A stretch of DNA of 23,597 nucleotides from a virus. The stretch is from the IMG/VR virus record IMGVR_UViG_3300044613_002535, positions 1 to 23,597 of that record; one strand, 5' to 3'. Shown one piece after another: positions 4,950-23,597 of this stretch (its first letter is position 1; the number at the start of each line of letters is the position of its first letter). The translations under genes and the position numbers were made by a program. The notes beneath the pieces are model-generated. The model was not told where the DNA came from and searched no databases. It saw only the letters and a program-made list of their open reading frames with translations.

Positions 4950-5972
4950 ATGGCAGCTCCCGCGGGACAATTGTTCCCCTCAGTTGGAAATAGGGAGGAC
5001 ATCCTTGATGTTCTTACCTACGTCGATAACAAAAACACACCCATCTCTTCGAGCATTGCTCGCGTAGGTGCGGACATCACTAATCCTTCGGTTTACAGCT
5101 ATTTGGCCGATTCTTACAGCGCTCCGTCCACAGACGGCGTTGTTGATTCCGCCGACGTGACCGAGTTCTCCGATGCGGCCGCAAACCGCGTCATGCTCAG
5201 TGCTCGCGCCCAAAAAATTCGCAGAACTGCCCGCGTTTCCGATTGGCAGGCGAACCTTGCTGACGTTGCCGCTATCGGCCGTCGCAAGGAATTTTCCAAG
5301 GCCATCGCCAAGACGATCTTGGAAGTCAAACGCGATGTCGAAGCGACCATCAGCTCGGACAACGAATCCGTCGAAGGCTCCGGCAGCGTGGCCTACAAAA
5401 CTCGCGGACTCGGCAAGTGGATCGCAACGGCCGGTTCTCAAACCGACCTTCCGGTTCCGACCTCGCAGGCGACTCCTTCTGCCAGCATCAACACGACCGC
5501 GACCGCGTCGCTCACCGAAAGCGCCCTGCAGAACGTCTTGCAGAGCATCTACGAGCAGACTGGCAGTCAGGATCGACTCGTCCTTGTGGCGGGACCGAGC
5601 CTTAAAAAGGCTGTGACTAATATGACACGCTTCACTGTGAACAGCACATCGAACGTGTTCAATCTGCGCCAGACCGCGCAGGCTTCCAGCTCGGATCGTC
5701 TGGTGTCGAATATCTCGTTCTACGAAGGAGATTTTTCGACCGTGGAAATCGTGACCAGCCTATTTTTGGCTGCCAACGCTTCGACCGACGCCGAGAAGTA
5801 TGCTCGCGGTTACATCATGTCGCCTGAGAGCGTCATGCTTCGCTACGGCCGCAAGCCGCGCTTCCAAGAGCTGCAAGACAGCGGTGGTGGACCGCGCGGA
5901 CTCGTGGATTGCATCGTGTCGCTCGCGGTTATGTCACCGAAAAATATGGGCAAGTTCTCCGCGACTTCCTAA
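4950..5972 (+). CDS. Major capsid protein, SU10/DUF5309 type (HK97 fold expected)
   Basis: A 340-residue protein that builds the icosahedral shell. It matches the DUF5309 (SU10-like major head) pattern. An N-terminal segment leads into REDILDVLTYVDNKNTPISS (15-34). The conserved part reads ANRVMLSARAQKIRRTARVS (78-97), then IGRRKEFSKAIAKTILEVKR (109-128), D129 and a turn before TRGLGKWI (151-158). A Thr/Ala-rich region and a beta-rich C-terminal half follow, including DRLVSNISFYEGDFSTVEIV. Length is typical. The position directly after a scaffold and before a small beta-rich protein agrees. Codon use and the shared spacer suggest high expression. Confidence in the role is high; the family name rests on pattern memory. 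Confidence 0.9.
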   Translation: MAAPAGQLFPSVGNREDILDVLTYVDNKNTPISSSIARVGADITNPSVYSYLADSYSAPSTDGVVDSADVTEFSDAAANRVMLSARAQKIRRTARVSDWQANLADVAAIGRRKEFSKAIAKTILEVKRDVEATISSDNESVEGSGSVAYKTRGLGKWIATAGSQTDLPVPTSQATPSASINTTATASLTESALQNVLQSIYEQTGSQDRLVLVAGPSLKKAVTNMTRFTVNSTSNVFNLRQTAQASSSDRLVSNISFYEGDFSTVEIVTSLFLAANASTDAEKYARGYIMSPESVMLRYGRKPRFQELQDSGGGPRGLVDCIVSLAVMSPKNMGKFSATS

Positions 5973-6507: not shown

Positions 6508-6843
6508 ATGTCAGATCAAATATTCTCCGAGCTGGTCGGAGACATGGATGACGAGCTTGCTCACCTTGTCAAAGAGGAGCTACAGACAGGATGGCGCGCA
6601 CAGCAGGTGATGGCCGCTATCGACGCTCGCAAGGCCAAGCAGATCAACGACCAGTTAGAACACTGCACTGTAGACGGCATCGGTCAGCACGTCATGGACG
6701 TTCCGGCCGATGCTTATTTTGCATGGCAGAAGCATCTAGGTGACGGCTGCTGGTCTGACAAAACATTCCGCCACTGGTTTCTAAAACGGAACCCTGAGTG
6801 CGCGATTAAGTATACCCCGCGCAAAGCCACAGTCCTGATCTAA
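6508..6843 (+). CDS. Conserved-type hypothetical protein preceding the portal
   Basis: A 111-residue protein. No well-spaced SD is present; TTAGG abuts the ATG, and a strong hairpin ends 8 nt upstream. The first 50 residues are helical and acidic (SELVGDMDDELAHLVKEELQ). The C-terminal half carries DAYFAWQKHLGDGCWSDKTF followed by RHWFLKRNPECAIKY. This W/C-containing pattern (H/Y-W...G-x-CWxDKxF...RxNP) is familiar from small uncharacterised proteins near portal or capsid genes in related phages. The stop overlaps the portal ATG (TAATG), so translation is coupled and a head-assembly role is plausible. Function unknown. Confidence 0.65.
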   Translation: MSDQIFSELVGDMDDELAHLVKEELQTGWRAQQVMAAIDARKAKQINDQLEHCTVDGIGQHVMDVPADAYFAWQKHLGDGCWSDKTFRHWFLKRNPECAIKYTPRKATVLI

Positions 6844-8942
6844 TGAAACTCGACCGCGACAAAATCACGCGCATGATCAGCGACATCGATCAGGCGGACC
6901 ACGACGGCTCCGGTTACCTGCATCGCAAGCTCAAGAACTTCAACGTCCGGTATTGTATCTGGGCCGGACAGAGCGACGACGGCCGCAAGCACCAAGCCTT
7001 CTACGGCAAGAAGGTCTTTCCTTGGGAGAATAGTAGTGACTGTGCCGTCCGTTTGGCCGAATCGATCATTCGGGAGCGGGTGATTTCGCTCACGTCCGCA
7101 TTCTTCAAGTCTCGCCTGCAAGTCCAGCCGGTCGAGGTGATGGACGCTCCCAAGAAGAATGCCGCCGAGACTGTGCTTCGCTGGCTCCTGCACAGCCACT
7201 GTGCCGACGACATGCGCCGCGAGATCCGCTTGGCTGCCGAGTTTAGAGAGACCTATGGCCTCGCCGTCATGGCTGTCGATTGGGAGCGCCAGACCCGCGT
7301 CGAGGTGAAGAAGTTCACGCTCGAAGAGGCGATGATGATGATCGAGGAGACGCAAGACCCCAACCTGCAAGCGCTCCTCGAAGTCGTTCTTGATCCGGCT
7401 CAGGAGGAGCTGGCCGCGGAGCTTCTCGGTCAGGTGGTGCCGGAGTTGGGCAGCGTGTCCAAGGTCCGCCAGCTCCGCGAGAAGGGCGAGGTCGAGTGGG
7501 AAAGCCCTTATATTTTCTCCAGCAAGCCGGTGGTGCGTGCTCTCGAAGCATGGGAGGACGTGATTTTTCCAATACAGACGGACTCCCTGCAAAGGGCGCC
7601 CTTCATCGCCCGCCGCGAGCTGCTCAGTGAGTTCGAGCTGCGCGAGCGCGCCGCACTGGAAGGCTGGGACAAGGAGTGGGTCGAGCGCGCGGTGAAGCAT
7701 CGCGGCGAGATGAAGCGCATCCACATGAACATCCACCGCTCGGACCAGTTCTTGTACGAGCAAATGCGCGACCTGATCGAAGTGTGGCACGTCTACCGCA
7801 AGGAGCACGACGACCGCACTGGAGCGACTAAGGTCACCCGCACCGTCGTCAGCTACAGCATCACCGACTCCGTCGCCCTGCATGAGCTGATGCCCTACGA
7901 GCATCAGATGTATCCCTTTGTCGAGCTGCCCCGCGAGCGCAACACCCGCCCCCTCCTCGAAAGCCGCGGAATCCCTGAGATCGTCCAGTCGGCGCAGGAA
8001 GAGGTGAAGGTGCAGAGGGACTATAGGGTTGACCGCGCCAGTATCAGCATCATTCCTCCGCTCAAAGTGCCCGCTTCCAGAGGCCGCCTCGATCTCGTCC
8101 TCGGACCCGCGATGCAAATCCCTGAGCGCCGCCCGAACGAGATTAACTGGATGACACCGCCGCCGTTTGACCAAGGCAGCATCGAGGTCGAGCAGGCAAC
8201 CCGCGCCGACGTTGACCGCTACTTCGGACGAATGACCGAGAGCGTGAATCCCAACATCGCCATGCTGCACATGCAGGATCTGGCCGACTCATGGCTCCTC
8301 GATATGAAGGTCATGATGATCCAAATCCTCGCCTTGGCGCAGCAGTATATGTTGCCAGAGGAAATTTCTCGCGTCACCGGAAACGCCACGCCGTTAGCTG
8401 AAGGCGCCGCCGACATCCGCGGTCGCTATGACATCACTGCCGAGTTCGACGCGAGAACCCTCGATAACGCCGCCTTGGAAGCCAAGATGACGTTCTTGAC
8501 CCAAAATCTAGTGCCTCTGGATTCAATGGGGGTTATCGACCGCGCTCAATTGATCAAGGTCATGCTCGGCAGCGTTGACCAAAACCTCGCCAACCTCCTC
8601 GTCAGGGATATCGGCGCCGCGACGCAGATGGAGCAAGAAGACGAACAAACCGCCTTCGCCAAAATCGCCGCAGGCACCGAACCCCCGCTCAAAGAAGGCG
8701 GACAAAACGCACAGGTAAGGCTGCAAACCTTGCAGCAAATCATTCAGAGCAATCCGGCAGTCCAACAGCGCTACGCCCAAGACGAAATCTTCCGCAAGAT
8801 GATCGACGCCCGCGCACAGGCTTTCCAATTCCAGTTGCAGCAGCAGCAAAACGCCGTCATCGGCCGCACCGGCGCGCAGCCAGCGCTGCAAAAGATGGCG
8901 CAAGACCAGCAACTCGGCATGACCGCCCAACCAGCCGCCTAA
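6843..8942 (+). CDS. Portal protein
   Basis: A 699-residue protein expected to form the dodecameric ring at the head vertex through which DNA enters and leaves. Size is in the range of podovirus portals. It starts by TAATG overlap with the preceding gene. Features are an N-terminal helical and aromatic region (GSGYLHRKLKNFNVRYCIWA), a wing-like mixed region with long acidic helices (about 155-215), and a beta core (YPFVELPRERNTRPLLESRG). A stem and clip region follows (DRYFGRMTESVNPNIAMLHM, then a helix LADSWLLDMKVMMIQILALA). The tail is Gln-rich (about 640-699), like the barrel or disordered C-termini of large portals. Unusually, it lies after scaffold and capsid genes instead of directly after terL. 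Confidence 0.85.
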   Translation: MKLDRDKITRMISDIDQADHDGSGYLHRKLKNFNVRYCIWAGQSDDGRKHQAFYGKKVFPWENSSDCAVRLAESIIRERVISLTSAFFKSRLQVQPVEVMDAPKKNAAETVLRWLLHSHCADDMRREIRLAAEFRETYGLAVMAVDWERQTRVEVKKFTLEEAMMMIEETQDPNLQALLEVVLDPAQEELAAELLGQVVPELGSVSKVRQLREKGEVEWESPYIFSSKPVVRALEAWEDVIFPIQTDSLQRAPFIARRELLSEFELRERAALEGWDKEWVERAVKHRGEMKRIHMNIHRSDQFLYEQMRDLIEVWHVYRKEHDDRTGATKVTRTVVSYSITDSVALHELMPYEHQMYPFVELPRERNTRPLLESRGIPEIVQSAQEEVKVQRDYRVDRASISIIPPLKVPASRGRLDLVLGPAMQIPERRPNEINWMTPPPFDQGSIEVEQATRADVDRYFGRMTESVNPNIAMLHMQDLADSWLLDMKVMMIQILALAQQYMLPEEISRVTGNATPLAEGAADIRGRYDITAEFDARTLDNAALEAKMTFLTQNLVPLDSMGVIDRAQLIKVMLGSVDQNLANLLVRDIGAATQMEQEDEQTAFAKIAAGTEPPLKEGGQNAQVRLQTLQQIIQSNPAVQQRYAQDEIFRKMIDARAQAFQFQLQQQQNAVIGRTGAQPALQKMAQDQQLGMTAQPAA

Positions 8943-12629: not shown

Positions 12630-13214
12630 ATGTGGAAGTGGATCAGGAATCTGTTTGGCAAGAAGTCCGCGACTGGCCCAGCGCCAGCCTCGCCGAGCTT
12701 GCCATTAGAATCCACAACCGTCTCCACACCCGCCGCGAGCAAAGTCTACGACGAGCGCAGGCTGAACACCCCGAACAAAAGCGCCAGACCCATCACGCCG
12801 ACCATGATCGTCTTGCATCACACATCCGGTAGCTACAACGGCTCCGTGAGCTGGTGCATGAACCCAGAAAGCAAAGTGTCCTACCACGTCATCATCGCCC
12901 GCAACGGCAACCGCACCGTCCTAGCCGACGACACGGCCCGCTGCTGGCATGCAGGTCTGTCGAGCTGGCAAGGCGTTCCAGACTGCAACAGCTATTCCCT
13001 CGGCGTGGCATGGGACGGCAACACCTACGAAGACCCGCTCGGTGAGGACGCTATGGACAGCGCCATCCAATACATCGTGCCCCGCATGAAGAAGTGGCAC
13101 ATCCCGATGAGCCGCATCGTGACTCACCAGCAAATCGCACCCAATCGCAAAAACGACATTTCTCCCGCCGACGCGGCGCGGTTCAAAAGCAGGCTTAAGG
13201 CAGCACTTAACTAA
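12630..13214 (+). CDS. Endolysin: N-acetylmuramoyl-L-alanine amidase (Amidase_2 type)
   Basis: A 194-residue zinc amidase that would cut the bond between N-acetylmuramic acid and L-alanine in peptidoglycan. The Amidase_2/AmpD fold is clear: LHHTSG with H63 and H64, SYHVIIARNG (84-93), CWHAG with H107, SLGVAWDG (123-130), and THQQIAPNRKNDISP with H166, K174 and D176. By analogy with AmpD and T7-type amidases the zinc ligands are probably H63, H166 and D176, and K174 is probably catalytic. The N-terminus is unusual: MWKWIRNLFGKK is cationic and tryptophan-bearing, followed by a Pro/Ala/Ser linker to about residue 38. There is no cell-wall repeat domain. Its stop overlaps the nozzle gene start. 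Confidence 0.9.
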   Translation: MWKWIRNLFGKKSATGPAPASPSLPLESTTVSTPAASKVYDERRLNTPNKSARPITPTMIVLHHTSGSYNGSVSWCMNPESKVSYHVIIARNGNRTVLADDTARCWHAGLSSWQGVPDCNSYSLGVAWDGNTYEDPLGEDAMDSAIQYIVPRMKKWHIPMSRIVTHQQIAPNRKNDISPADAARFKSRLKAALN

Positions 13215-15339: not shown

Positions 15340-16524
15340 ATGGCCTCCTATAATTACACATTCGCCTCTGGGGATACCGTGACCCCGACTAAGTTGAATT
15401 CCGCCCGCACCGTCAGCGAGATCGTCAACGCCGATGTCAGCGCCACGGCGGCCATTGCTGGAACCAAGGTTGCTCCAGCCTTCGGCGCGCAAGACATCAC
15501 CGTCACCACGGCCAACCGCTCGATCACCAACACCGGCAACTTTGCGCTGTCTTTTGGGACAAACAACATTGAGCGCATGCGAATCGCCGCTGGCGGCAAT
15601 TTAGGAATCGGATCAACCAGCCCAAGTCAGCTTTTGCAAATTGGAGACGGCACTGGGTTCACCATGCCGCTTGTTCTTGGAGACTCAAGCAGCTACGGCG
15701 CCGGACTAAGAATCCACAACGACAACACCGGCACCAGCGCCGGATGCTTTATTGATTTCGGTCTTGGTGCTGACACCACGGCCGCAGCGATCCAAGCGCG
15801 CAAGCAGTCAGATGGCTCCACCGATTTGGCGTTGCTGCCATCAAGCACTGTCGGAGCTGTCTTCGATGCAATCGTCATGGATGGTTCATCTGGCGGCATT
15901 AGTCTTACCGGAGACGTTACGATAGCCGACAAAATCATTCACAGCGGCGACACGAATACGGCTGTTCGGTTTCCTGCGGCGGATACGGTGACCATAGAAA
16001 CCTCTGGAAACGAGCGCCTTCGCGTCAACTCTACCGGCGACGTGTCATTTAACTCAACCGGAGTCAGCACCAGCACAACGGTTGGCGGCGCATCGTGGAC
16101 GAGCACCGGATACCATGTGTTTTATAGCAACGCCACATTGGCCGCGAGCGGCATTATTGACTACCATTCCGACTGGGTCGCAACCAACCGCAACGTGTTC
16201 CGAGTGCAGGCGGATGGCAATGCCCTCAATTTCAACAACAGCTACGGTGCGCTGTCCGATGTCTCAATCAAAGAAAACATCGAAGACGCTACGCCGAAGC
16301 TCGCAGCGCTGAAGCAGGTCCGCGTCGTCAACTTCAATCGCATCGGCGACCCCGATAACAAACAAATTGGCATGGTCGCACAAGAGCTGGAAGCGGTTTG
16401 GCCGAAGCTCATTTCCGAGGACCAAGACGGTCTGAAGTCGATCAAATACAGCGTGCTGGTGCCCATACTCGTTAAGGCAGTGCAGGAACTCGCCGCCAAA
16501 GTGGAAACCTTAGAAGCCGCCTAA
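15340..16524 (+). CDS. Tail fibre with C-terminal S74 intramolecular chaperone
   Basis: A 394-residue protein. The N-terminus (MASYNYTFASGDTVTPTKLN) is a short attachment segment. The shaft is beta-rich, with recurring RMRIAAGGNLGIGSTSP and GNERLRVNSTGDVSF units typical of fibres. The last 91 residues are a Peptidase_S74 domain: SDVSIKENI with the Ser306/Lys311 dyad, VVNFNRIGD, IGMVAQELEAVWP and a closing helix. In this family the domain drives trimer folding and then cleaves itself off just before the Ser of the dyad. The mature fibre would therefore be about 305 residues. No SD is present; the gene follows the nozzle by 5 nt. Confidence 0.85.
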   Translation: MASYNYTFASGDTVTPTKLNSARTVSEIVNADVSATAAIAGTKVAPAFGAQDITVTTANRSITNTGNFALSFGTNNIERMRIAAGGNLGIGSTSPSQLLQIGDGTGFTMPLVLGDSSSYGAGLRIHNDNTGTSAGCFIDFGLGADTTAAAIQARKQSDGSTDLALLPSSTVGAVFDAIVMDGSSGGISLTGDVTIADKIIHSGDTNTAVRFPAADTVTIETSGNERLRVNSTGDVSFNSTGVSTSTTVGGASWTSTGYHVFYSNATLAASGIIDYHSDWVATNRNVFRVQADGNALNFNNSYGALSDVSIKENIEDATPKLAALKQVRVVNFNRIGDPDNKQIGMVAQELEAVWPKLISEDQDGLKSIKYSVLVPILVKAVQELAAKVETLEAA

Positions 16525-16692: not shown

Positions 16693-18213
16693 ATGGACGC
16701 AGCACAATTTATCAGAGACTACTTAGGAGCAAGACCGACAGCTCCGACACAGCTTGGCGCAGATGCGTTGGCTAATTATGGCATTGCGGATTCTCGGCGC
16801 GTAACAGGGGAGTTGGCGGGAGACGCTGCGTGGATGGCCGGAGGGCTGCGAGGTCAGCAGCTTGACGGCATCGGTCAAATCCAAGGCGGCTTTTCTGGAG
16901 CGAATAACGCCTACACGCGAGAGGCGGAAGGAGCTACGGCTCGCGGGCTAGGCCAAGCCATTTTGACATCGGGACTCGCCGACAGGTTCGGCGGGATGTC
17001 AGGGTTAATGACCGACCGCGCATGGCAAGATTACACGTCAGGGCCAAATGCGCTGGAAAACCAGATATTTGCAGCGGGCCAAGGCGCCATGGGCGCAAGA
17101 GCGGATCAAGTGGGCGTGCAGGGTGTCGGCGCGGGCCAGCTCGGCGGGTCGCTCATGCAGCAAGCGCTACAACGATCCCAAAGTGGCGGCCGACTGTCGG
17201 CAGAAGAGTCGCGGGATGCCACGCAAGCGGCTCGATCTGGCATGGCAGCGCGAGGAATGGCCACCGGCAGCGCCGGTGTGGCCGCTGAGTTACTTAACCG
17301 CGACCGCTTCACGCGCGCCCGCCAAGCAGAGGACAACGCATTTGCCAGCGGCGTGCAGGCGCAAGACCTGACGCGCCAGTTCAACAACCAAGATTCGCGT
17401 TTGCGTGCCGGAATAGCCAACCAAGCGGCCAATCAGCAGCAGCTCGCGCAGAATCGCGGGTTTATGACGGACGCGGCCAATGCGTTTAACACCAATCAGC
17501 TCAACCGCATGGGCCAAGCGGGCAACCTGCTCGGACTTGGAGGGACGTTCCTACAAAACGCCGGAGCACTGCGAGGACAGGCTGGCGAAATGAACTTCGC
17601 GGGAGCCGGTCGCATGATGGACATTGATCCATTTGCCCGCTCCGTTCAGGCGGGACTCAATATGGGGCAATTTGCCGCAGGGACAGCCACGGATGCAGTC
17701 GGTCAAAACTTCGCCAACATGCTTGACTTGGGCGCGAACACCTACGGATTCAACACCAACATGAATATGGATCTTTACAATTCATGGATCAATAACGCCA
17801 CGGCCGCGCAGACGGGCGCACAGGCAGCTAATTCGCAGCGTGACGCCGCCAACATCTCGGCGGCGGCGGCGAGGTCGGCGCAGCCGAAGTGGTATGAGAC
17901 GGCTCTGGGCGCAGTTGGAAATATCTTTGGCGGCTTTAATATGAACCCATTTAAATGGAGCGACAAGCGCCTAAAGACCGACATCAAGCCGCTGGGAAAA
18001 GCCGGTAGCGTGCTGGGTCTGACGGCTTACGAGTTCCGCTACAAGGGCGACAAGAAGAAGCGTAAGGGCTTTATGGCCCAAGACGTGCAGAAGGTGCTGC
18101 CGGAGGCGGTGAAAGAGTTTAGCCACAACGGCAAGAAGCGGCTGGCGATCAATCCCAAGGTCATCGGCGCGGCTCTGGCGGAAGAACTGGCGGCCAATGC
18201 ACAGGCAGCTTAA
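16693..18213 (+). CDS. Ejection/internal-virion-like protein fused to an S74 chaperone
   Basis: A 506-residue protein with SD AAGGAAGGA 8 nt before ATG 16693. Residues 1-400 are Ala/Gly/Gln/Asn/Met-rich and mainly helical (TREAEGATARGLGQAI, SAEESRDATQAARSGMAARG, FNNQDSRLRAGIANQAANQQ), the composition of internal or ejected virion proteins. A short hydrophobic segment (WYETALGAVGNIFGGF, about 399-414) leads to an 84-residue Peptidase_S74 domain. It has SDKRLKTDI with the Ser423/Lys428 dyad, AYEFRYKGD, GFMAQDVQKVLPEAV and a final helix. S74 normally trims fibres, so its fusion here suggests this protein also trimerises and matures by self-cleavage. Whether it is ejected or a tail component is inferred from composition and from the similar genes that follow. 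Confidence 0.7.
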   Translation: MDAAQFIRDYLGARPTAPTQLGADALANYGIADSRRVTGELAGDAAWMAGGLRGQQLDGIGQIQGGFSGANNAYTREAEGATARGLGQAILTSGLADRFGGMSGLMTDRAWQDYTSGPNALENQIFAAGQGAMGARADQVGVQGVGAGQLGGSLMQQALQRSQSGGRLSAEESRDATQAARSGMAARGMATGSAGVAAELLNRDRFTRARQAEDNAFASGVQAQDLTRQFNNQDSRLRAGIANQAANQQQLAQNRGFMTDAANAFNTNQLNRMGQAGNLLGLGGTFLQNAGALRGQAGEMNFAGAGRMMDIDPFARSVQAGLNMGQFAAGTATDAVGQNFANMLDLGANTYGFNTNMNMDLYNSWINNATAAQTGAQAANSQRDAANISAAAARSAQPKWYETALGAVGNIFGGFNMNPFKWSDKRLKTDIKPLGKAGSVLGLTAYEFRYKGDKKKRKGFMAQDVQKVLPEAVKEFSHNGKKRLAINPKVIGAALAEELAANAQAA

Positions 18214-18232
18214 CACACAAAAAAACAAAACT

Positions 18233-18859
18233 ATGTTAGCATACAATCCTCCAACACGAAACACCGCTGGGCAAATCTACAGCGACAACATGCAGCGGTC
18301 GGCTGGCTATGACGCTCAAGGCATCATGGCACAGGCCGAGGCGGACCTCATCAGGGCGCAACGCAGGCATCAAGCGATCCTCGATGGCGCCGGTTTGGTC
18401 GGCGATGTCGCCAAGACGGCGGTGGGCTTCGCCATGGGCGGGCCTGCGGGTGCTGCGATGGCGGGCGGCATGGGTGGCGGTGGTGGTGGTGGTGGCGGTG
18501 GAATCCTTGACACCATCATTGGCGCCTACGCGCAAAAGGAGCAGGACAAGAGCGATTCCAAGATCTACGGCAACTTGATGAAGGTGGTGGCACCGGCCTT
18601 TGGCGAGGACGGCGACGCCATAATGGAACAGTGGAAAAGCCTTGAGTCTGACCGCGACAAGGCGCGATTCGGTAGCACGCTGTTTTCTTCGCTTGGGCAG
18701 ATTAGTAATATGTATATGGCCAATCGGAGTGCTGGGATTCGGGAGAATGCGCAGGCGGCGAACTCTCCTCAAGTTCGCGCCTTGGTTGGCAACCAGCAGG
18801 ACGTGATTAACGAAGGTGGAAGCAGCATCGGCGGCGCAACTCGTCGCCGCACCCGCTAA
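18233..18859 (+). CDS. Probable internal virion/ejection protein with polyglycine
   Basis: A 208-residue protein. ATG 18233 follows an A-rich leader (18219-18232) without SD; an in-frame ATG 12 codons earlier overlaps the preceding gene and is less likely. Order: polar N-terminus (YNPPTRNTAGQIYSDNMQRS), a helix with EADLIRAQRRHQAILDGAGL, a hydrophobic Gly/Ala-rich segment (about 55-80) and ten glycines (81-90). A hydrophobic turn ILDTIIGAYA, a helical domain and a basic tail (GGATRRRTR) follow. The glycine-rich amphipathic centre suggests membrane insertion or flexibility, as in short-tailed phage ejection proteins. Family not recognised beyond that. Confidence 0.6.
   Translation: MLAYNPPTRNTAGQIYSDNMQRSAGYDAQGIMAQAEADLIRAQRRHQAILDGAGLVGDVAKTAVGFAMGGPAGAAMAGGMGGGGGGGGGGILDTIIGAYAQKEQDKSDSKIYGNLMKVVAPAFGEDGDAIMEQWKSLESDRDKARFGSTLFSSLGQISNMYMANRSAGIRENAQAANSPQVRALVGNQQDVINEGGSSIGGATRRRTR
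18473..18502 (+). repeat. GGT/GGC trinucleotide tract encoding ten glycines
   Basis: Ten consecutive Gly codons, seven GGT, two GGC and one GGA, with five GGT in direct tandem (18479-18493). Such a tract can lengthen or shorten in steps of 3 by slippage without shifting the frame. It lies in the hydrophobic centre of the encoded protein. Confidence 0.75.
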
Positions 18860-18863
18860 CAAT

Positions 18864-19820
18864 ATGCCTCCGCGCCGCAACACCCAACCACCCTACACGC
18901 CGGACGAAGAGCCGCTTCCGGCCATGGACAACGGTATGACGTTGGATCAGCTCAACGCCATGAACGGTGTCAACATGACCGAGGAGGATGCAATGGCATC
19001 CGGCATGGCGCCGCAGGATGTGGTCAACGACGTCGCCGCTGAACCAGAAGTGCGCCGCGCGGAGCCGAACCTCCGGCCTACCGGCGCGTTCATGGATCTC
19101 GGATTTATCCAGCAGCTCAACAACGCCGCATCGGATGAGGAGTTCAACGCCATGTACGACGCACTCGATCCCGCGCTGAAGCATGTGTACGACCGTAGCT
19201 ACGGCATGCAAATTAGCCCGAAGTGGGCAGCGGAGACGGCGCAGCAGTATTACCAGATGCAGGACAAGTTGAGCATGCCGCAAAACAGGCTCGCCGAGCA
19301 GGAGCTTAGTGAAAAACAGACGGCCAAGCTCAACGAGCGGCGCGACGCAATGCGGACGGCGCAGACGATGCTGGAGGCTGCCGACCGGATCGATAGGGCG
19401 ATTGACGCCGGTTTAGTCGGACCTTGGAAGGACGTGGAGCAGAAGTTTGACGGCAGCGGGTTGCCATTTAGCGACCCCGATCAGTTCGCCGAGCGCAAGG
19501 CGCTTGAAGTTCAGACCAAGCGCAGCGTCATCGATGTGCTGCCGGCATTCAAGGGGCCGTTGAGCGATTCCGACCGCCGCTTCTTTACCGAGATGTTCCC
19601 TGAGATCAAAGAGCCGACCGGCGTGTGGAAGGACTACTCTACGCAGTTGCGGGAAAAATTTCGCCCGATTGCCGAAGGCAACTTTGAGTTGCCTAGTGAG
19701 CAGGAGCAGAGGCCCGCTCAAGGTGCCGCTGCTACTGCCGCGCCAGCGCGCAACACCTTCGTCTACGACGGCGCCACCTACGAGCGACTGCCGGACGGAA
19801 CCGCCCGACTTATCGAATAG
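18864..19820 (+). CDS. Probable internal virion/ejection-associated protein
   Basis: A 318-residue protein. ATG 18864 was chosen over an in-frame ATG at 18816 because the latter overlaps the preceding gene; leader ACAAT, no SD. The N-terminal 80 residues are Pro/Met/Glu-rich and probably disordered (PPRRNTQPPYTPDEEPLPAM). Residues 90-240 are helical and charged (QMQDKLSMPQNRLAEQELSE, MLEAADRIDRAIDAGLVGPW). A motif KGPLSDSDRRFFTEMFPEIK (about 231-250) resembles the conserved helix found near the end of ejection-cluster proteins. A linker of E/Q/P/A then leads to a small C-terminal module (TFVYDGATYERLPDGTARLI). It probably belongs with its neighbours in a virion-internal complex; function unproven. 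Confidence 0.55.
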   Translation: MPPRRNTQPPYTPDEEPLPAMDNGMTLDQLNAMNGVNMTEEDAMASGMAPQDVVNDVAAEPEVRRAEPNLRPTGAFMDLGFIQQLNNAASDEEFNAMYDALDPALKHVYDRSYGMQISPKWAAETAQQYYQMQDKLSMPQNRLAEQELSEKQTAKLNERRDAMRTAQTMLEAADRIDRAIDAGLVGPWKDVEQKFDGSGLPFSDPDQFAERKALEVQTKRSVIDVLPAFKGPLSDSDRRFFTEMFPEIKEPTGVWKDYSTQLREKFRPIAEGNFELPSEQEQRPAQGAAATAAPARNTFVYDGATYERLPDGTARLIE

Positions 19821-19826
19821 CACGAC

Positions 19827-22800
19827 ATGCCGCCCAAAACACTCACGGCGGAACAGGTCGCAGAGATTGATCGGCAGCAGCAGCCAACGCAGCCGCGCCC
19901 AGTCAACTGGCAATCTGTCATCCCGCAAAAAGAAGACGTTCTGACCGCTCGCGTTAACCGCGCAGCGCGTCAGAATGCTCCGGCTACGCTCACAGCCGAG
20001 CAGGTGGATACCGCCGAGGCTCAAAACAGCGTGGCGGCGGAAACGTCTTTCGGGCGGGCCATGGGTGCGCGACCGGATCGGTCGGCGGGTCCGCTGGCGC
20101 CGGGGCCGAAGAAGGTGCTGTCGGCGCGGGAGGTGCAGCAGATCAACCACGACCGCGTCAGCGACATTTCCTACCTGCCAACGATGGATGAATGGCGGGA
20201 GGATCAGAAGTTTAAGGCAGAGCGCGATGACAGTGTGGGACGGTTCGTTGAGGCGGGCAAGGCCATTGCCGGCGGACTCTTCCAGGCTGCGGCGGCGACC
20301 GCTTATGCGCCGTTTGACTTTGTGGCGCGCGGCACCAAGGCATACGACGAATGGGTCAACTCTTCCGCCGAGGGCATACGTCAAGCGGGCATCAGCACCG
20401 CCGAGCTGTGGTCATGGGCCGGTGATGTCGTCAATGATAGCGTCCGAGAGACTGAGCGCGTCAACGTGATCGACAACCAACTGCGCCAGCGACTCGCCGC
20501 GGAGAACAAGTTTACCGGCAATGCTCAGGCCGACGCGCAGATTTTCGCTCAGGCTAGAGAGCGGGCCATGGCATCCGGTGCCTACGGAAAGACACAGGAG
20601 CAGGAGGCGGACGACGAGAACACCCAATACCAGCGCTTCATCCGCGACCGATCCTTCCAACAGCAGGCGGCTAACATCACCGAGACCAACATCGGCGCGC
20701 TGCCGGACGGCCGCGCAGAGATGGGGATTGATGCGTCAAAGCTCAATCCGGGGCTGGTCACAACCACGGCGCTTGTTGCCGATCCGCTCAATTTTGCCCT
20801 GCCCATCGGCTTCGGAGCGGTCAACAAGCTGCGCGTGCTGCGGCGTGTGGCGTCTTTGACGGGAACTCCGTTAAGGGGCGCAGGCAAGGCGGCGGGCGCC
20901 ATGGCGCAGGGCAGCGAGAACATCTACAGCAGGATCGTAGAAGGCGTGGAGGATGCCACGGGCATCGGCGAGGCTGGGCAAGCGGCAGCGGTCAGCGCCG
21001 TGTCGTGGAAGGCGGCGGCCGCCATGGCCACGCTGAAGGGCAGCGGGCGTGTCCTGCGCAATGTGGAGCGCGGGCTGGAGACTGGCAGCATCTTGGCGCG
21101 TGAGATTGGCATTGGTGGCGTGGGCGTTTCCCGCGTCGAGGCGGCTAAGAAGCTGCGCTATGCGCCGATCCCCGAGCGTTACCGCCGTGCCTATGATGGA
21201 TTTTTTACCTCACCGGACAGCACATTGCGGCGGATCAGCGAGACGCCGGGGCTGTCGCCTATCGCGCGCCGGTCGGCGGCTACGTTGGACAAGCTAGGGG
21301 CTACGCAAGTCTTTCGCGCAACGGATGACGCGCTGAGTGGCGCCTTGGCTACGGCACCGATTGCTGTGCCGCTGGCTGCGATTGCGCCGGAGGAGCGGCG
21401 ACCAGAGATCCTTGGTGCGCTGATGACGGTCGGCGCCGGGGCCGGTATCGTCGGCGGCAAGGTGCGGCGGATGTCGGAGTTTGACGATGCGCTGGTGGCC
21501 AAAATGCTGGCCGATGCGGATATCTCTGGCGGTGACGCGGCGTCACTGGCCAATGCGCTGCCTCACGACAAGCTGGTCAACATGGCGCGGATGCAGTCGG
21601 TTATTGCGGCCAAGGCGGATTTCATTCCGCTGCGGGCCAAGGACTACGCTCTGGATACTACGGTCAATGAGGCGATGGGCCTCGGCACCCGCGGCATCCA
21701 TGTGGACGCGCAAAAAGGGAAACGCCCTCGGATTTATCTCAACATCGATAAGATCGCCACGGGCGATGTGGCCGGCCATGAGATCGGCCACGCCATCTTC
21801 CGCAGCAATATCCTCGGCGGTGAGATCAAGCAGGGCATGCGCGGCATGGTGGACGTGCAGTATGGCATGGACGGCATCGCGGCGCGCGGACGGGAATACG
21901 TCAACTCGCAACTGACCCAAGAGGTGCGCGACGGCACGACGGGCATCCAGCTCAATGTGCTGACGCCAGACGAGGTGCAGCGCATTGCGGCGGCAGGCGG
22001 CGATGAGGCGGCCGAACAGGCGCTGAAGCAGGAGTTTATCCGCGAGCGCTGGGCCAAGGATGCCGATTGGCGCAAGCAGGCCATCGACGAGCGCACCGAT
22101 ATGCTCAACCAAGAGCGGCTGGCCCAGGGCGAGACGGCTTGGGATTGGGCGCGGGACGAGATCGCCGCGGAGACGTTCAGCGGACTTGGCAAGGGACTCA
22201 ACCTTTCCGGCATCCGGGCGAGCGGCCCGCTGGGGCGTGCGGTCGGCGCAGCGCAGGCCACGATGGAAGCGATGGGTGCGCGCTTCAAGGGCAACGGCCG
22301 GCTGGAAACGCCGAACCAGCTTTTTGTGGAGAACCCGCTCTTCGACACGCCAGAGATGCGCAAGGCGGCGGGCAACTACGTCAAGACCTACGACCGCTAT
22401 CTGGTCGGCCTCGAGAAGGAGGGCAAGGTCAAGCAACGCGGGACACCGATTGCGCCGACCGGCAAGGCGAGCGACGCAGCGCGCAGTCCGCACACGCGCA
22501 CCTACGCCAACACCAAGAACGGCGTCACGGTGGTGGAGAGCGATCTTTTTATCGAGCGACCAGATGGCACGCGGGTGCCGAAGTCGCAGGAGATGATCAA
22601 CACGCAGGAAAAGGCGCGGGCGGCCACGCTCAAGTCAATCAATGACCGGACGAAGTTCGCCGAAAGGGAGGGCGATTGGGGCGCGAGGAAGTTGAGCAAT
22701 GGGCGCGTGGAGGTCGGCGGGCCAACGTTGCCGCTGCAGTTCGACAATTTTATCCAAGTGCCGCAGTGGCTGCGGATCAAGGCGCGGGAGTTTGAGGCGG

Positions 22801-23597
22801 GGCGCGCGGAAGGTCGCAGCTACCTTTACAGCGTCAACGTCATCGGCAGTGGAGAATCTGGCACCTACAAGGTGAAGAACCTTGGCAACGTCGAGGCCAA
22901 GGTCGGCGAGATGGTGCCCTTCGGTTGGGCGGTGTCGCAGAAGAATCATTTGCTGACCAAGGTGATTGATCTCAACTCGTTCCGCGCGGCAACCATGCGC
23001 GCCATCGACAACGAGCAGCTTGGCGAGTTTGGCAACGACCTGCGCGCCGTGGAGGCTAGCCTCAAGCAGATGCTGCGCAACTACCAAGACGGCAACCCCG
23101 GCGAGACCGGCTTGGGCGTGACCAAAAAGAACATCCTCAACGGACTTCTCGGCACCGGCACCGTGACGCAGCGGCAGAACAACCCTGCATGGTATACGCT
23201 CAACAACCAAGGCAGCGTCCGCACGTTCCGCTTCGACCGGCTCAACTATGCCGATCCCTACGGCACCGGCTACTTCCCGCACTACAACAAGATCAACATC
23301 AACGCGCTGCCCGATGACGCTGGCCGCATGTCGATGGATAGCTACCGCCAATTTGACGCCGACCGCAAGGTGGCTTGGATGAACAAGGAAGCGGCCAAGC
23401 GCGGATTCAGCAATGCGACCAACTGGCAAGGCGCCGACCCGCAGGGATTCCAAGCGGCAGACTCACAGTATCGACAAGAGTTCCCAACGGAGAGCATGCC
23501 CCAGCAGATTCCGCGGGAGGCTCAGGGGATGCCGGATGTTGCGGACGAGGTTCTCGCTGCAAACAAAACTGCGCGCGCTGCTGGTGCTGTAGGCTTT
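19827..23597 (+). CDS. Giant virion-type protein with HEIGH metallopeptidase motif (3' truncated)
   Basis: From ATG 19827 one frame stays open to the window edge: 1257 residues with no stop. The N-terminal 110 residues are Gln/Pro/Ala-rich and carry a heptapeptide twice (TLTAEQV at 5-11 and 54-60). Helical domains follow, with hydrophobic stretches near 144-166 and 505-546 (GALMTVGAGAGIVGGKV). Residues 650-655 read GHEIGH, a HExxH zinc site (H651, E652, H655). Downstream, RDEIAAETF (E778, E782) could supply the third ligand as in gluzincins. The rest is charged, with a beta-rich part near 960-1010. It looks like a large internal virion or polyvalent-type phage protein that is ejected with DNA. 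Protease activity and role are inferred; the C-terminus is outside the window. Confidence 0.7.
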   Translation, partial: MPPKTLTAEQVAEIDRQQQPTQPRPVNWQSVIPQKEDVLTARVNRAARQNAPATLTAEQVDTAEAQNSVAAETSFGRAMGARPDRSAGPLAPGPKKVLSAREVQQINHDRVSDISYLPTMDEWREDQKFKAERDDSVGRFVEAGKAIAGGLFQAAAATAYAPFDFVARGTKAYDEWVNSSAEGIRQAGISTAELWSWAGDVVNDSVRETERVNVIDNQLRQRLAAENKFTGNAQADAQIFAQARERAMASGAYGKTQEQEADDENTQYQRFIRDRSFQQQAANITETNIGALPDGRAEMGIDASKLNPGLVTTTALVADPLNFALPIGFGAVNKLRVLRRVASLTGTPLRGAGKAAGAMAQGSENIYSRIVEGVEDATGIGEAGQAAAVSAVSWKAAAAMATLKGSGRVLRNVERGLETGSILAREIGIGGVGVSRVEAAKKLRYAPIPERYRRAYDGFFTSPDSTLRRISETPGLSPIARRSAATLDKLGATQVFRATDDALSGALATAPIAVPLAAIAPEERRPEILGALMTVGAGAGIVGGKVRRMSEFDDALVAKMLADADISGGDAASLANALPHDKLVNMARMQSVIAAKADFIPLRAKDYALDTTVNEAMGLGTRGIHVDAQKGKRPRIYLNIDKIATGDVAGHEIGHAIFRSNILGGEIKQGMRGMVDVQYGMDGIAARGREYVNSQLTQEVRDGTTGIQLNVLTPDEVQRIAAAGGDEAAEQALKQEFIRERWAKDADWRKQAIDERTDMLNQERLAQGETAWDWARDEIAAETFSGLGKGLNLSGIRASGPLGRAVGAAQATMEAMGARFKGNGRLETPNQLFVENPLFDTPEMRKAAGNYVKTYDRYLVGLEKEGKVKQRGTPIAPTGKASDAARSPHTRTYANTKNGVTVVESDLFIERPDGTRVPKSQEMINTQEKARAATLKSINDRTKFAEREGDWGARKLSNGRVEVGGPTLPLQFDNFIQVPQWLRIKAREFEAGRAEGRSYLYSVNVIGSGESGTYKVKNLGNVEAKVGEMVPFGWAVSQKNHLLTKVIDLNSFRAATMRAIDNEQLGEFGNDLRAVEASLKQMLRNYQDGNPGETGLGVTKKNILNGLLGTGTVTQRQNNPAWYTLNNQGSVRTFRFDRLNYADPYGTGYFPHYNKININALPDDAGRMSMDSYRQFDADRKVAWMNKEAAKRGFSNATNWQGADPQGFQAADSQYRQEFPTESMPQQIPREAQGMPDVADEVLAANKTARAAGAVGF

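Follow-up and report, generated by a model that had tools for sequence, protein, structure and literature searches.

What is the product of a giant open reading frame (ORF) that carries a metalloprotease signature deep inside it and runs off the end of a viral contig, and what could a protease embedded in such a protein be doing there? We addressed this question for the IMG/VR record IMGVR_UViG_3300044613_002535, whose 23,597 bases were analyzed as a whole and are referred to below as the window. A preliminary description, made from the letters of the window, had noted a single frame of at least 1257 codons leaving it, and our ORF check found this frame uninterrupted from the ATG at 19827 through the last base; since the window is the entire record, the gene is truncated by the contig end. 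Comparison with relatives revealed that the encoded protein is composed of a constant core (residues 1 to about 1,220) followed by interchangeable cassettes. Two things were out of reach of the preliminary description: the placement of the protease within the constant core, and the variable part, which lies beyond the window. In our overall reading, an uncultivated phage group probably encodes here a virion protein of the polyvalent, ejection type, with a zincin-like metallopeptidase in its core and swappable cassettes that would serve as effectors.

Step-wise searches of a viral collection with the protease region resulted in 79 loci, the farthest at 27% identity (91 relatives were found, 80 were kept in these loci, and 78 were used, L053 being omitted because it encodes the same protein as L052). 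The relatives sit on contigs of about 40 kilobases, and eight of them encode a complete giant protein of 1,843-2,310 amino acids (aa), namely L002 (2064 aa), L003 (2089 aa), L005 (1843 aa), L006 (2008 aa), L012 (2151 aa), L013 (2310 aa), L014 (1948 aa), and L017 (2153 aa). Single-linkage clustering at 95% yielded 61 clusters, some of which merge proteins with different cassettes. The 3' end is present in 54 clusters, whose representatives have stop-to-stop frames of 1121 to 2428 aa; they include L075, with an ORF that stops early, and the 5'-open L104 and L115.

The core aligns throughout close relatives, and the ends beyond it are mutually unrelated. Natural core-only proteins (L107, L119, and L136) stop at an N-A-L-P-D block, which is the attachment point of the cassettes. 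The close relative L002 has a core 98% identical to that of the window in protein and diverges from it right after QGMPD. The last 104 nucleotides of the window are identical to L061 at 100 of 104 positions, though the two cores are 37.5% identical. Similarly, L061 and L006 have 606 aa in common at 88% identity with cores at 38%, and L070 and L092 have 454 aa in common at 88.5% with cores at 41%. Altogether, 14 of the pairs examined combine a core identity of at most 60% with a cassette that is at least 80% identical across at least 250 aa, these pairs, like the breakpoints described below, sharing ancestry and hence being non-independent. For 8 of the 14 pairs the core identity is 32-41%; L061 and L085, whose proteins are identical, occur in two of these 8. 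Cassettes have been exchanged between phages with diverged cores. In an orphan-cassette check of the 78 loci (1.33 megabases, mostly partial genomes), 630 high-scoring segment pairs with cassettes fell within giant ORFs and 5 outside, all 5 of them downstream of the interrupted L075 ORF. In L075 the giant ORF ends early, near 12895, and cassette similarity goes on downstream, which reflects either an interrupted gene or an assembly error.

As to cassette content, a Pfam scan of 29 cassettes produced six with a match above the curated cut-off, while the remaining 23 match no curated family above it. The domains found are ART-PolyVal (L103, L110, L122, and L127) and DUF7178 (L040 and L117); the L013 cassette additionally aligns with a portion of a PHROG family of 2564 positions that bears the name endolysin. 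On visual inspection, GNAT-like, methyltransferase-like, and DNA-glycosylase-like cassettes were suspected, but we make no claim for them. The theme of large polyvalent phage proteins, which the preliminary description had brought up, is thereby recovered through the ART-PolyVal domains in the cassettes of relatives; the window's own 1257 residues contain no domain of the polyvalent repertoire in the Pfam scan.

The breakpoints between shared and unshared sequence cluster at a recurring peptide, GQAMP[DE] and its variants. In its strict form it occurs in 49 copies in 33 of the 54 representatives, versus 0.009 copies expected, and among the other 119 orders of GQAMP only AQGMP is present (14 times), itself a joint variant. 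The strict motif, which provides the stringent test, lies within 15 aa of 19 of the 44 internal breakpoints versus 1.9 by chance, with a maximum of 8 in 5000 draws. A loose motif, defined after the sequences had been viewed, lies within 15 aa of 77 of the 131 distinct breakpoints versus 12.3 by chance. A module of about 80 aa, ending in LQRRGQAMPD or near it and usually starting at another joint, recurs across many backgrounds (L063, L076, L078, L081, L093, L100, L103, L128, L147, and L156).

Two further ideas about the peptide were rejected. The pattern GQAM-F-[FL]-P-E gave 5 stretches, among which only that of L023, itself a giant, belongs to the family. The motif as a general phage linker was examined by a scan for RGQAMPD, which returned 74 stretches. 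Of these, 49 are similar to giants, every one in an ORF of 400 aa or more; the other 25 have no giant similarity, and six of them lie in ORFs of that length (L170, L174, L177, L185, L190, and L196). Among these six is an unrelated kind of protein that recurs and contains RGQAMPDG[S]-like text. One of them, L177, is a 2350-aa frame with RGQAMPD at 1128 and a HEAGH sequence, lacks giant similarity, and is located on the same contig as L102; L177 and L185 have a frame in common. In the literature searched, no mention of GQAMPD or GQAMPE was found.

The protease signature itself stands where it had been placed, with GHEIGH followed by a candidate third-ligand segment that reads D777-E778-I-A-A-E782 (Table 1). 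By composition, 0.003 HExxH sequences would be expected in the frame. We aligned the protease region in 42 rows, the most divergent being 30% identical to the window. H655, D777, and E778 do not vary in this alignment, while each of H651, E652, and E782 is conserved in at least 90% of rows. A wider profile survey comprised 115 rows (78 ORFs plus motif-scan ORFs, duplicates and fragments included), and 102 of these have H, E, H, D, E, and E at the six positions, so that both the HExxH and the third Glu of the proposed signature are conserved in the family. The 13 deviating rows include three fragments beginning past HExxH, three HEXXXH forms (L119, L135, and L136), three HExxE rows that correspond to two distinct proteins (L147, identical to L173, and L156), two replacements of D777 by Glu (L145 and L179), one replacement of E782 by Asp in an HExxH member (L107), and one row in which the zinc ligands are gone (L203). 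Because E778 is kept in L107, it is a better third-ligand candidate than E782. H651, H655, and E778 are the predicted zinc ligands and E652 the predicted base, and the domain would probably bind zinc and be proteolytic. The ratio of nonsynonymous to synonymous substitution rates (dN/dS, Nei-Gojobori) in the protease region is 0.057-0.138 across six pairs, pointing to strong purifying selection.

An AlphaFold2 (AF2) model built from the 42 rows has a mean predicted local distance difference test score (pLDDT) of 70.4 and a predicted template modelling score (pTM) of 0.54. It arranges a helix, three strands, the HEIGH helix, and the DEIAAE helix in the order expected of a zincin, with HExxH on a helix and E778 on model helix 226-237; an earlier structure prediction for residues 548-1240 from 14 rows was poor (pLDDT 52.3, pTM 0.33). 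We conclude that a true domain of the zincin type is very likely present in this region, with a weakly matched fold and no curated family claiming it. Several members (L097 and L101, just before HEIGH, and probably L098, L099, and L102) have an insert between strand 3 and the HEIGH helix. The protease had also been described as flanked by hydrophobic segments. A Kyte-Doolittle scan of the 1257 residues found two such segments, both N-terminal to it, so this side of the claim stands and the C-terminal side does not.

Upstream of the giant gene, the proposal that it ends a cluster of ejection-like genes is supported by two syntenic genes, arranged as in the ejection genes of phage N4 (16.5 kDa, 66 kDa, and the giant virion RNA polymerase, vRNAP). 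Choosing upstream genes with a greedy ORF rule, we found that the ORF immediately preceding the giant measures 281-356 aa in 18 of 26 loci (the window and 25 relatives), and in 14 of these 18 a further ORF of 155-220 aa lies ahead of it. Longer upstream ORFs are found in L052 (398 aa) and L123 (440 aa). Six loci (L105, L107, L119, L131, L134, and L135) do not fit the upstream order under this rule, L119 being cut at the locus edge.

In the reading that we favor, the core would run from an N-terminal part with membrane-prone segments through the zincin-like metallopeptidase to a further conserved domain, and would be followed by one to several cassettes, some with ADP-ribosyltransferase domains, joined at GQAMP[DE] and its variants. 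The protein would be packaged in the virion and then enter the cell along with the DNA, and the cassettes would act on the host as early effectors. A location in the virion and injection into the host are suggested by analogy, the argument for injection being the gene order, and the ejection-like genes suggest that the phage group may be short-tailed. Most likely, the task of the zincin would be to cut the chain it belongs to, perhaps close to the joints, freeing the cassettes. We propose such self-processing tentatively, as less likely than not. Splitting of the chain at the joints is marginally less probable; this step is rated low because proteins with a broken site keep joints and intact ones can lack them. 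Also less likely than not is that the zincin cuts at GQAMP[DE] itself; if it did, an injected, self-splitting polyprotein would release changeable early effectors and the same peptide would serve as the swap joint.

A number of results weigh against this reading, starting with the identity of the fold. Foldseek with the protease-region model found no match at E<=0.001. Against viral models its best match was non-significant (E 0.14), as was rank 2, a protein with a 'large polyvalent protein associated domain' (E 0.15, probability 0.44). Anthrax lethal factor filled the top eight rows of VIA-align (Z 5.2-6.4, 166-173 residues, root-mean-square deviation 4.1-4.4), with model residues 1-256 placed over lethal factor 28-263, which is below the trust level of the tool. 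We take this part of lethal factor to be its non-catalytic N-terminal domain, of zincin-like fold. HHpred has previously tied polyvalent zincins to anthrax lethal factor (Iyer et al. 2017, PMC5512222; this source and those cited below are represented here by the portions of text available to us).

Family searches also count against the reading. The MPTase-PolyVal family PF18818 is matched by none of the 42 protease-region members at E<=1, and a scan of these members against curated families gave a strong match only to an insert in 3 of them; the models concerned are Apocytochrome F C-terminal or RPOC hybrid ones, which these three probably reach through the pre-HEIGH insert. Pfam and PHROGs produced sub-threshold matches only on the giant core. 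In an hhalign comparison with nine N4-type zincin sequences, HExxH was in register at E 0.094, but the reversed control reached 0.077 and one of 20 column-shuffled profiles outscored the real one; against a single N4 zincin sequence, E was 0.033.

Other results bear on self-cleavage at the joints and at the same time on a rival explanation, a substantial though not predominant possibility. By this account the same protein is injected, the target of the zincin is a protein of the host or of a defence system, and GQAMP[DE] is no more than a flexible, recombination-tolerant joint. The clustering of breakpoints at the motif is what such a joint predicts. Moreover, joints persist where HExxH is broken: the HExxE proteins L147 (identical to L173) and L156 and the ligand-less L203 keep 4, 3, and 1 motifs, respectively, plus cassettes, which rules out the idea that the joint motif is always accompanied by an intact protease. 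Conversely, an intact HExxH can do without joints. The strict joint is absent in 21 of the 54 representatives and the loose joint in 10 (L070, L071, L073, L074, L075, L107, L119, L123, L135, and L136), and L070, L071, L073, and L074 among them have an intact HEIGH and long cassettes. Two observations count against a mere joint, each with a qualification. The 55 copies of GQA[ML]P[DE] have 23 DNA spellings, which suggests constraint at the protein level, though the copies were chosen by peptide; and all 49 strict copies are C-terminal to the third-ligand site, although a joint between cassettes would fall there too.

It is rather unlikely that the zincin fold is retained in a structural or packaging role and has hardly any protease activity, or none. 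HEXXXH, HExxE, and ligand-less forms do occur in the family, and the N4 vRNAP, which has its own HExxH domain, is packaged unprocessed, its zincin-bearing region being needed for encapsidation (Iyer et al. 2017, PMC5512222), a precedent that also speaks against self-cleavage. The catalytic residues, however, are intact in most of the surveyed rows, and the purifying selection on the region is strong. Finally, a chance HEIGH motif in a structural protein would be consistent with the missing curated family and the weak fold match, but is very improbable given the expectation by composition, and is contradicted by the conservation of HEIGH together with E778 to about 30% identity.

The favored reading, an injected polyvalent protein, can be compared with several known systems. 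A zincin in polyvalent proteins was known before; what is added here is a constant core with cassettes swapped at a recurring peptide. Like the polyvalent proteins in the available text of Iyer et al. 2017 (PMC5512222), the giant is a multi-domain phage protein with HEXXH and a Glu on a later helix, has ART-PolyVal (here in relatives), and includes the HEXXXH variant described among polyvalent zincins. Self-processing by the metallopeptidase domain of polyvalent proteins was already proposed, by inference, in the same source, which also reports mosaic domain combinations for some polyvalent loci and a deviation of polyvalent proteins from the constant-N, variable-C plan of secreted toxins. Unlike the proteins described there, our family lacks a PF18818 match and has a long constant core with C-terminal cassettes swapped at a recurring peptide; the word 'linker' is absent from the text available. 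The combination of a constant N-terminal part with interchangeable C-terminal cassettes is that of polymorphic toxins in general.

Similar to N4 gp50 (Schitoviridae; PMC12633501), as far as the source text covers it, the giant is the last gene of an ejection-like trio and has an internal HExxH domain, but no RNA polymerase family is matched in it by Pfam or PHROGs. With the MuF polymorphic toxins of temperate phages (Jamet et al. 2017, PMC5576092, in the part available) it has in common a phage-borne family with variable C-terminal effector domains, and differs from them in having several cassettes in series, an internal zincin, and no bacterial relative in one scan; the MuF domain gave no Pfam match at E<=1 in the giant, the scan covering P0001-P0005. 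The T7 proteins gp14, gp15, and gp16 (PMC8954989, likewise in part) have the same gene order of small, middle, and giant, and membrane-prone segments, whereas no transglycosylase is matched in our giant by Pfam and the cassettes extend it far past the 1318 aa of gp16.

Among named phages, tblastn with the window giant gave no match at 1e-5, residues 548-1240 gave two matches only, both at E 4, and the giants of L131 and L135 gave no match at 1e-3. The closest named phage is C75C1, via a portal-like gene (28.6%), and the 1343-aa protein in the giant's position there has a blastp similarity to the giant no better than E 5.8. A single scan of bacterial genomes returned 186 pattern matches and zero confirmed relatives, and no meaningful match was found by sequence in the PDB.

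In this family, the role of a protease embedded in a phage protein with several functions, one that probably enters the host by injection, becomes open to testing. The self-processing idea is testable here because of the constant core, the core-only forms, the natural losses of the active site, and a repeated candidate site, and the cassettes represent a pool of possible anti-host effectors.

Table 1. Positions of the giant gene, its parts, and the two genes preceding it in the window
Feature	Position	Strand	Basis
Upstream gene, 220 aa, with Gly/Ala-rich segment and syntenic counterparts	18197..18859	+	ORF list, locus comparison
Upstream gene, 334 aa; relatives have syntenic counterparts	18816..19820	+	ORF list, locus comparison
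Giant ORF, 5' part	19827..23597	+	1257 codons; 3' end past contig end
Hydrophobic segments, residues 501-521 and 528-546	21327..21464	+	Kyte-Doolittle scan
Zincin-like metallopeptidase region, about residues 560-830	21504..22316	+	42-row alignment, AF2 model, dN/dS
GHEIGH, residues 650-655 (H651, E652, H655)	21774..21791	+	sequence, alignment, profile survey
DEIAAE, residues 777-782; candidate third ligand E778 (and E782)	22155..22172	+	alignment, profile survey
Constant core, C-terminal part (about residues 870-1170) up to the end at the N-A-L-P-D block	22434..23336	+	alignment; core-only proteins end here
Joint motif A-Q-G-M-P-D, residues 1232-1237	23520..23537	+	sequence comparison
Start of the C-terminal cassette belonging to the window (20 codons)	23538..23597	+	match to L061

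Elsewhere in the window, the terminase large subunit (1353-2984) and the major head protein (4950-5972), both assigned by PHROGs, are accompanied by a portal-like gene (6843-8942) and an Amidase_2 lysis gene (12630-13214). Two adjacent genes, at 15340-16524 and 16693-18213, each encode, close to the C-terminus, a chaperone domain of the endosialidase type (Peptidase_S74), and the gene at this place varies in length among the relatives.

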